33,664 nt of DNA. It comes from Dehalococcoidia bacterium. Its GTDB lineage: Bacteria; Chloroflexota; Dehalococcoidia; Tepidiformales; Tepidiformaceae. Below, piece by piece: positions 4,921 to 7,459 of this stretch. The notes below the pieces were generated by a model. The model did not search any database and was not told where the DNA came from. It saw nothing but the letters and a program-made list of their open reading frames with translations. The stretch is taken from assembly GCA_007118095.1 (NCBI GenBank), contig SKSF01000126.1:1-33664 (forward strand), in the 5' to 3' direction. Position 1 is the first letter of the stretch. Every line of letters starts with the position of its first letter. A program made the position numbers and the translations under genes.

Positions 4921-5232
4921 GTGAGCACACCACCGCCCCGACGACTGGAAGGCGAGCTCCTCACCGAGTGCGCCGGCTGGATCTGGGAACAAATGCAGGA
5001 AGAGGGCTACATGCTGGCCGGCGAGCTTGTGGAGCTCGTCCTTGTTACCGAACGTGAACTGGGAATACACGCCCAGGAACTCGATACCATTGCCGCGAAA
5101 CTCGAAACCGAGTTCCAGGAACGTGGTATCGGGGGCAATCCCGCGCCCTTCGAAGCACCGATTATCCGGGTCATCCTCGAGTGGGAGGAAGACTTCCTCG
5201 GGTTCGCGGGTATCGCGCGGGCCGATAGCTGA
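4921..5232 (+). CDS. Small acidic protein of unknown function
   Basis: I do not recognise this 103-residue protein. It begins at GTG, with GGAG 5 bases upstream (4912-4915). It is rich in Glu and Leu and largely helical by eye (WIWEQMQEEGYMLAGELVELVL, then ELGIHAQELDTIAAKLE). It ends in a hydrophobic-aromatic stretch (VILEWEEDFLGF). There is no signal peptide, membrane segment or metal-binding Cys/His cluster. It is divergent from csoR across about 120 bases, so the CsoR operator might also affect it, but nothing in the protein suggests a role in metal handling. Good start signals and a following hairpin support it as a real gene. Confidence 0.7.
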   Translation: MSTPPPRRLEGELLTECAGWIWEQMQEEGYMLAGELVELVLVTERELGIHAQELDTIAAKLETEFQERGIGGNPAPFEAPIIRVILEWEEDFLGFAGIARADS

Positions 5233-5264
5233 CCGCCGTATCTTCATGTTGACGCCTCCCGTGC

Positions 5265-5289
5265 AACTGCTCGACACTGCAGAGCAGTT
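5265..5289 (+). terminator. Hairpin after the 103-residue gene
   Basis: AACTGCTC (5265-5272) pairs perfectly with GAGCAGTT (5282-5289) around a 9-base loop, 32 bases after the stop codon. There is no T-run, so this is a candidate terminator or 3'-end structure. TTGACG at 5249-5254 is the only -35-like sequence seen before the glmS leader, and its best -10 partner (GACACT) is poor. Confidence 0.4.
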
Positions 5290-5352
5290 CAAAGGCGGAG
5301 GTGCCGTGCCCATCAAGCATCACAGCCCCGGAGAGCATGAGACCGGAAGCAA

Positions 5353-5488
5353 GCGCCAGGTCCGCGCACAGTGCCGCGGATGACGAGGTGGGGGCAGTAT
5401 CGAAGCATTCGGCGGATGGCCCCCCGGCTGCGCAGCCGTCAGGCGCCGGACAAACCAGGACGGGTAACCGACTGACAAACCCGGCGCC
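5353..5488 (+). promoter_or_regulatory. glmS ribozyme (glucosamine-6-phosphate riboswitch)
   Basis: The glmS 5' leader contains the conserved core of the self-cleaving glmS ribozyme. Cleavage would fall between A5352 and G5353, just before GCGCC. The P1 hairpin pairs TCCGCG (5361-5366) with CGCGGA (5375-5380). The invariant TGACGAGGTGG, TATCGAAG and TTCGGCGGATG blocks follow at 5381-5418. GGGGGC pairs with GCCCCC, and CGGCT-GCGC-AGCCG forms the next hairpin (5425-5438). An outer 3' stem GGCGCCGG/CCGGCGCC (5442-5449 with 5481-5488) encloses GGACAAACC and a GTAA-capped hairpin (5461-5470). In known examples glucosamine-6-phosphate is the cleavage cofactor, and the cleaved message is degraded. 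The ribozyme lies 120 bases before the glmS start, as expected for feedback control. The 3' boundary is my estimate from the outer stem. Confidence 0.93.
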
Positions 5489-5564
5489 GCGCGCAGGGAC
5501 TCGCACATCCCTCTCCAATCCCAGCGCTCTCCAGCACAACGAACGAAAAAGGATGACCGCAAGC

Positions 5565-5596: not shown

Positions 5597-5608
5597 ACGG
5601 AGAACGCT

Positions 5609-7459
5609 ATGTGTGGAATCGTTGGCTATACTGGCAGCAGGCCTGCCACCCCCCTCCTCATCGAAGGCCTCCGCGACCTCGAATACCGTGGGTACGACTC
5701 CGCAGGGGTCGCTGTTATGTCTGGCAAGGGCGACCTCGAAATTGTGAAGCGCGCCGGGAAAATCCAGCGCCTCGACGATGCACTCGACGGTGGCGAACGC
5801 ACCAGCGCGACTACTGGTATCGGCCACACTCGCTGGGCAACGCACGGCAAACCCACCGACATGAATGCACATCCCCACCCGGGGACGAACGGGCACGTTG
5901 TCGTGGTCCACAACGGAATTGTTGAGAACTACGCTGAGCTCCGCCGCGAACTGAGCGAATGTGGAGTCACCTTCTCCAGTGAGACAGACACCGAAACGAT
6001 CGCTCATCTCATGGAACGGGCCATGGACCGGGGGCTCGACCTCGCCAGCGCTCTGCGCGAAACGGCCGCCCGCCTCGAGGGGTCCCAGGCAATCGTCGCG
6101 ATCAGCCCATCGGAGCCCGGCGTGCTTGCCGCCGCACGCCTGGGCAACGCCGGGGGTGTCGTCCTTGGCATTGGCGAAGGCGAGAACTTTGTCGCAAGTG
6201 ATCTCGCGGCAGTTATCCCGCACACGCGCCACGTCGTCTTCCTGGCAGACCACCAGTTCGCGCGCGTCACGCCCGGGGCCTTCACCATCACAGGCACCGA
6301 TGGACAGCCCGTCGGCACCATCGACGAGCGCGTTGTCCCCATCGACCCGATGAGTGCGCTAAAGGGCAACTACCCCCACTTCATGCTCAAAGAGATCATG
6401 GAGCAGCCCGAGGCGCTGTCGGATACGATCCAGAGCCTTGTTTCGGTCGAGCCACCCGAGATACGCCTGCCCGACCTTGGACCTGCTGCGGACCAGCTCA
6501 CGCGAGTGAACCGCGTCGTCCTCATCGGCATGGGGACCAGCCTCCACGCCGCAATGCTTGGCCGCTACTTCGTTGAGAAGTACGCGGGCATCCCCGCGGA
6601 AATCGATAACGCCAGCGAGTTTCGCTATCGCGACGCCATCCTCGACCCGGGCACCCTTGTCGTTTCCGTTAGCCAGTCCGGCGAAACGGTTGACGTACTC
6701 GAAGGAATGAGGGTGGCGCGTGACGCGGGATGCTTGCAGGTCACGATATGCAATACAGAAGGCGGTCAAACAACCCGCGTCGCTGACGGAACAGTCTATA
6801 CGCGTGCCGGGCTCGAACGCGGCGTGGCCAGCACCAAGTGCTTCACGGCTGCCCTGGTCGCGCTCTATGCCCTGGCGCTACGGCTCGGCGAAGCGCGGGG
6901 ACACCTCGACCAGGAAACCATCATCGAACGCATCCGCGCGCTCGTACCCCTGCCCGAGCACGTGGCACGCATCCTCGGCGCCGAACAAGCGCTCGCACGC
7001 GTCGCACGCGACCTTTCACAGGCTCAGAACATGCTCTTCCTCGGCCGTGGGGGAGCGTTCCCCGTGGCGATGGAAGGCGCACTTAAAATGAAAGAGGTGA
7101 GTTACATCCACGCTGAAGGCTACGCCGCAGGGGAAATGAAACATGGGCCCATCGCGCTCATCGACCCCGGTTTCCCATCAGTTGTCATAGCGACACGGCA
7201 TGCGCTGCGCAACAAAATCATTTCAAACATCGAACAGCTCCAGGCACGCGGTGGACGCGTCGTCGCCCTGGTGACTGAAGGCGACAACGAAATCGAGGAG
7301 CTGTGTGACGATTGCATCGAATTACCACCCGTCGATCAGACGTTAGAGCCTATACTGGCCACAATTCCGCTACAGTGCCTCGCCTACCGGGTCGCTATCA
7401 TCCGCGGATGCGATGTTGACCAGCCTCGCAACCTCGCGAAGACGGTCACGGTCGAATAG
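5609..7459 (+). CDS. glmS: Glutamine-fructose-6-phosphate aminotransferase (isomerizing) GlmS
   Basis: GlmS makes glucosamine-6-phosphate from fructose-6-phosphate and glutamine, the first step toward UDP-GlcNAc and peptidoglycan. The 616-residue length is normal. The N-terminal glutaminase domain begins MCGIVGYTGS, so the catalytic Cys becomes residue 1 after Met removal; RYDSAG-type residues (EYRGYDSAG) and GHTRWATHG follow. Two SIS sugar-isomerase domains follow, with GMGTSLHA, VSVSQSGETVD, ERGVASTKCFT and the conserved AEGYAAGEMKHGPIAL. The protein ends in DQPRNLAKTVTVE, the family C-terminus with the invariant Lys. GGAG lies six bases upstream of the ATG. Regulation is almost certainly through the ribozyme in its leader. 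It is a single gene; the next gene starts 153 bases later. Confidence 0.98.
   Translation: MCGIVGYTGSRPATPLLIEGLRDLEYRGYDSAGVAVMSGKGDLEIVKRAGKIQRLDDALDGGERTSATTGIGHTRWATHGKPTDMNAHPHPGTNGHVVVVHNGIVENYAELRRELSECGVTFSSETDTETIAHLMERAMDRGLDLASALRETAARLEGSQAIVAISPSEPGVLAAARLGNAGGVVLGIGEGENFVASDLAAVIPHTRHVVFLADHQFARVTPGAFTITGTDGQPVGTIDERVVPIDPMSALKGNYPHFMLKEIMEQPEALSDTIQSLVSVEPPEIRLPDLGPAADQLTRVNRVVLIGMGTSLHAAMLGRYFVEKYAGIPAEIDNASEFRYRDAILDPGTLVVSVSQSGETVDVLEGMRVARDAGCLQVTICNTEGGQTTRVADGTVYTRAGLERGVASTKCFTAALVALYALALRLGEARGHLDQETIIERIRALVPLPEHVARILGAEQALARVARDLSQAQNMLFLGRGGAFPVAMEGALKMKEVSYIHAEGYAAGEMKHGPIALIDPGFPSVVIATRHALRNKIISNIEQLQARGGRVVALVTEGDNEIEELCDDCIELPPVDQTLEPILATIPLQCLAYRVAIIRGCDVDQPRNLAKTVTVE

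Follow-up and report, generated by a model that had tools for sequence, protein, structure and literature searches.

A glmS ribozyme in the glmS leader of a Dehalococcoidia bacterium, with a candidate stabiliser 5′ of the cut and glnA-linked relatives in Chloroflexota

Ribozymes of the glmS class reportedly occur outside the Firmicutes, in Deinococcus-Thermus, and all but two of them are said to be hosted by glmS mRNAs. In B. subtilis, RNase J1 degrades the 5′-OH product that glmS cleavage leaves behind (PMC3997798). A second described system bears on the sequence that precedes such a ribozyme: STAB-SD elements, exemplified by cry3A, lie in 5′ untranslated regions and make the mRNA more stable (Agaisse and Lereclus 1996, cited in PMC3997798).

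We analysed a stretch of 33,664 nucleotides (hereafter the window; GenBank assembly GCA_007118095.1, contig SKSF01000126.1), in which a complete glmS ribozyme had been predicted from the sequence at 5353-5488. The host had been read as a member of the Chloroflexota and is indeed one, the genome belonging to the class Dehalococcoidia. Compared with the RF00234 ribozymes of B. subtilis, B. anthracis and T. tengcongensis, the window has the same cleavage site, double-pseudoknot core and P3/P3.1, a P4 with IL4 adenines and a GNRA loop, the same place before glmS, and RNase J in the genome. It differs in its GC-rich stems, in a short 4-nt pairing of L3 with the 3′ tail, in an extra P2.1-P2.2 loop nucleotide (relative to the Rfam consensus) and in an unusual GCGC/GCGC P3.1. 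Its leader may resemble that of cry3A: a Shine-Dalgarno-like sequence, strong across the class and modest in the window, lies in the 5′ UTR near the predicted 5′ end and lacks a conserved start codon. Unlike the cry3A element, however, this candidate lies 5′ of a self-cleaving ribozyme, and cleavage would remove it.

The ribozyme and its fold

A cmscan search of the whole window returned RF00234 (glmS ribozyme) as its sole Rfam match. The match covers 5341-5498 of the forward strand, on which all window features described here lie, at full length and with 63.4 bits (E=1.6e-12). This is well over the curated cut-off of 37 bits, as the prediction of a complete ribozyme 5′ of glmS implied, and below the score of most Bacillota glmS ribozymes. 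Deinobacterium chartae and B. subtilis served as positive controls for the scan, and the 3.23-Mb assembly holds one RF00234 copy, that of the window. The glmS gene (5609-7459, 616 aa; TIGR01135, 730 bits against a cut-off of 418) has no second full-length copy in the genome and follows a likely ribosome-binding site, GGAG at 5599-5602, read from the sequence. Placement of the ribozyme in the glmS leader, also foreseen, recurs in all 59 of the 59 loci examined, each with glmS 3′ of the ribozyme on the same strand. On sequence grounds, we regard the element as confirmed: a genuine RF00234-class glmS ribozyme in the 5′ leader of glmS.

The sequence blocks on which the original prediction was built are all in place: AAGCGCC at 5351-5357, TGACGAGG at 5381-5388, TATCGAAG at 5398-5405 and TTCGGCGGATG at 5408-5418, together with an 8-bp stem (5442-5449/5481-5488) and a GTAA loop (5464-5467). 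The Rfam alignment likewise puts the predicted self-cleavage site, A(-1)/G(1), at A5352/G5353; G1 is invariant in 29 relatives.

We placed the crystal-structure helices P1, P2, P2.1, P2.2, P3, P3.1 and P4 on the window, using the helix definitions and roles given in PMC11602151 and PMC7125110, and tallied the base pairs across 29 relatives from the window's class. Among these relatives 94.1% of cells are paired, and 23 pairs show compensatory changes. The covariation score is 0.359, whereas shuffled alignments give 0.138 ± 0.009 (0/500 as high) and slid controls no more than 0.091. The P2.1, P2.2 and P3.1 pseudoknots all map onto the window.

The double-pseudoknot core P2/P2.1/P2.2, with its A/G cleavage dinucleotide, is present. 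The 5′ strand of P2.2 (5354-5359: CGCC and G7, with A6 bulged at 5358) is invariant in 29/29 and pairs with CGGCG at 5410-5414. The P1 stem-loop (5360-5381) is 98.5% paired, with compensatory change in 4/7 pairs. P2.1 joins CGA at 5384-5386 to 5400-5402 (97.7% paired) and includes G5385, the active-site G that corresponds to B. subtilis G39 in PMC11602151. P2 joins 5390-5395 to 5419-5424; it is 100% paired and four of its pairs covary.

The peripheral elements are present as well: a P3/P3.1 pseudoknot, IL4 adenines and a GNRA L4 (GUAA). The P3 hairpin (5425-5438), whose innermost pair is not conserved, carries the 4-nt loop L3, GCGC at 5430-5433. This loop pairs with GCGC at 5491-5494, in 100% of the 29 sequences and with compensatory change in 2/4 pairs; relatives have GCAC/GTGC or GTAC/GTAC where the window has GCGC/GCGC. 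The pairing is absent from the Rfam model, and its identification with the P3.1 of the literature is our own assignment, made from its position and the description in PMC11602151. Because the P3.1 strand occupies 5491-5494, we extend the ribozyme domain to 5494; of the extent first given, 5353-5488, the start stands and the end does not.

The P4 domain (5442-5488) consists of an outer stem, the internal loop IL4, an inner stem and the GUAA tetraloop at 5464-5467, and 7/8 outer and 5/7 inner pairs covary in the 29 relatives. IL4 is formed by AAA at 5452-5454, invariant in the relatives, and AAA at 5477-5479. In B. subtilis the IL4 adenines are sensitive to mutation, and roles for IL4 and L4 have been described (PMC11602151). 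The direct repeat GACAAACC, located as predicted at 5449-5456 and 5474-5481, had been taken for a local oddity. It is instead accounted for by the two conserved strands of IL4, and we do not treat it as a separate feature.

Could this be a decayed relative that has kept the fold and lost cleavage? Thermodynamic folding does not set this GC-rich sequence apart (z=-1.45), and we set minimum-free-energy folding aside as uninformative. The minimum-free-energy model joins GCGC at 5353-5356 to GCGC at 5489-5492, which leaves room for misfolding, and the window-specific GCGC/GCGC P3.1 gives a non-catalytic reading some footing. Across the relatives, however, positions of the active site and the cofactor pocket vary little or not at all, and compensatory changes continue. 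Loss of catalysis thus seems extremely improbable.

We conclude that the window very probably carries a functional RF00234 glmS ribozyme, inherited within its Dehalococcoidia lineage and acting through cleavage with glucosamine-6-phosphate (GlcN6P) as cofactor, decay by RNase J, and feedback. The dependence on GlcN6P, the cleavage and the decay are here inferred from membership of the class. At high levels of GlcN6P, the RNA would use it as cofactor and cut itself between A5352 and G5353. RNase J would then degrade the glmS mRNA 3′ of the cut, starting from its new 5′-OH end, and amino-sugar synthesis would thereby come under feedback control. The window's genome encodes RNase J (TIGR00649, 610.7 bits).

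Distribution and inheritance in Chloroflexota

In samples of genomes that are not exhaustive sets, RF00234 matched 125 of 400 from the phylum (111 over the cut-off), 37 of 294 from the class and 22 of 24 from the window's own family, its own genome included. In the phylum of one Bacillota MAG, 96 of 149 genomes have a match. Six named GlmS relatives of the window (L060-L064 and L066) carry the ribozyme; the more distant named relatives that were scanned do not.

In a GlmS tree of 84 rows the window groups with members of its family (SH-aLRT 100), and this group falls within a Dehalococcoidia clade (99), away from Bacillota GlmS. Presence and absence of the ribozyme require at least 7 changes on this tree, against 25 when shuffled. 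This placement suggests vertical inheritance of the ribozyme within the lineage, with losses, which is the parsimonious interpretation. One small-genome member of the family, G617 (f1, 1.4 Mb; locus L164), has a glmS at 53% identity and no RF00234 match, an apparent loss of the ribozyme.

The original prediction had offered two explanations for a glmS ribozyme in this host, an outlying member or lateral transfer, and the GlmS tree and the distribution count against both. A recent transfer from Firmicutes, of the ribozyme with or without glmS, would be natural to suspect of a class best known from that group. Moreover, ribozymes occur on several distant GlmS clades within Chloroflexota, so the phylum may have seen older transfers. 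Yet the window's GlmS is nested within its own family and class, away from the Bacillota proteins, and nearly all sampled family members have a ribozyme in the same place. We therefore reject recent transfer, which we judge highly improbable. On the reading of vertical inheritance, the glmS ribozyme is a widespread and lineage-inherited feature of Chloroflexota and not a Firmicute import, and the known class is extended accordingly.

The leader 5′ of the cleavage site

A putative promoter, TTGACG-N18-GACACT, lies at 5249-5278. A sigma-70 consensus scan did not pick it up; we infer it from closely similar hexamers in the window's family, where a promoter-like pair TTGAC(G)-N17/18-(G)A(C)ACT precedes the cleavage site in 16/16 loci. 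Just 5′ of the leader is a 103-aa open reading frame (4921-5232) with no Pfam or NCBIfam match.

The leader itself contains a Shine-Dalgarno-like GGAGGTG at 5297-5303, a candidate stabiliser of the STAB-SD type. GGRGG is found in 30/30 class loci and GGAGG in 28, with TG next in most. In the class loci the motif sits 28-68 nt 5′ of the cleavage site; in the window's family it lies 11-21 nt (mostly 16-19) 3′ of the -10 element. Its spacing to the promoter is steadier than its spacing to the ribozyme, which fits an element acting at the 5′ end.

We scored the motif by its duplex energy with the anti-Shine-Dalgarno sequence against dinucleotide shuffles, counting as hits those loci in the top 3 of 60. 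The duplexes were computed with the near-universal anti-Shine-Dalgarno sequence, since the window's own assembly yielded no match to the 16S 3′ tail pattern. The mean z is 3.22 in the window's family (13/16 loci), 2.84 in other class loci (11/14) and 2.98 in Bacillota (17/24), these and the following counts coming from related loci and so not being independent. It is 1.96 for glmS of the Chloroflexota family f62 (11/29), 0.9 for other phylum loci (3/21), 0.57 for f62 glnA (3/25) and 0.24 for glmS genes that have no ribozyme (4/37). The motif is therefore enriched 5′ of the glmS ribozymes of the class and of Bacillota, and not 5′ of ribozyme-less glmS. The window's own site is modest (-13.2 kcal/mol, matched by 3.8% of random 100-mers from the window).

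Two other roles for the motif were considered. Pairing with the 3′ strand of P2 was rejected: GGAGG is unchanged where P2 is CCCCCC, and there is no consistent covariation. Alternatively, ribosomes could bind at GGAGG (5297-5301) to make a leader peptide, and their translating into the ribozyme would control its folding. The window does have a GTG at Shine-Dalgarno spacing (5306), which opens a 25-codon frame that ends in the ribozyme, and an ATG follows the motif in some Bacillota leaders. This GTG is not conserved, however; a start codon occurs 3-12 nt 3′ of the motif in 3/30 class loci, against 4.9 expected by chance, and no conserved frame was seen. We rejected the motif as the Shine-Dalgarno sequence of a conserved leader peptide, and consider control by leader translation unlikely.

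Since the motif is enriched at ribozyme loci and not at ribozyme-less glmS, cleavage may instead remove a STAB-SD-like stabiliser. We tentatively propose, at somewhat less than even confidence, that the non-initiating element at 5297-5303 binds the 30S subunit and protects glmS mRNA from RNase J, and that the GlcN6P-triggered cut would remove this shield along with the 5′ triphosphate. Such an arrangement might be general for the class and for many Bacillota, and previously undescribed; among the papers we could search, none links STAB-SD elements to the glmS ribozyme. If the motif is a stabiliser, it would supply a missing half of glmS silencing, in which one cut both removes a ribosome-bound cap and creates an entry site for RNase J.

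glnA-linked elements in family f62

Genomes of f62 often have two RF00234 matches, one before glmS and the other before glnA, which encodes a type I glutamine synthetase (TIGR00653 in the four proteins tested). RF00234-like elements lie directly 5′ of glnA at L195:395-602, L197:1305-1508, L198:2662-2879(-) and L200:1389-1608, and at about 20 more f62 loci among L204-L233 and L258-L277. Several f62 copies score near or below the RF00234 cut-off.

The two kinds of copy differ in P2.2. The glmS copies have GCGCC(N)G pairing with CGGCG (bulge at position 6) or GCGCATG pairing with CAGCG (bulge at position 5). The latter is a third register, seen in f62 glmS copies such as L212, L215 and L216 and also in L011-L013 and L017. 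The glnA copies have GCG(G/A)CTG opposite CAGCG, which pairs fully only with a bulge at position 4. A script found this bulge in 24/25 glnA copies; the 25th (L211), which it passed over, also has GCGGCTG. The bulge-4 form is absent from the glmS copies of the same f62 genomes. All these glnA copies keep ACGAGG, and nearly all keep the cleavage dinucleotide AG and ATCGA. In vitro, shifted P2.2 bulges can rescue cleavage (PMC7125110).

The glnA-linked elements are possibly a novel variant of the ribozyme, one that has a new target and perhaps recognises a different ligand. They may represent a naturally diverged glmS-like set in which the active-site bulge has shifted and the target gene is new, which would make ligand specificity in the glmS ribozyme fold directly testable. 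These sister ribozymes, and a leader motif that the cut would remove, are apparently undescribed features. A scan for the glnA-type pattern in the class of G355 gave only chance-looking matches in coding sequence, with a gap limit in the pattern too short for a fair negative.

Compared with the window, both glmS- and glnA-linked f62 copies can carry one or more extra stems between P2 and P2.1 (L196:1074-1232, L200:1389-1608). Genome G831 has a third, glnA-type element at L268:1501-1715 that adjoins neither glmS nor glnA. Beside the f62 glmS/glnA loci we also observed a T-box-like leader of 68.8 bits (below its cut-off of 93) and a 6S RNA match of 47.1 bits (L195:5155-5373, L197:1098-1273).
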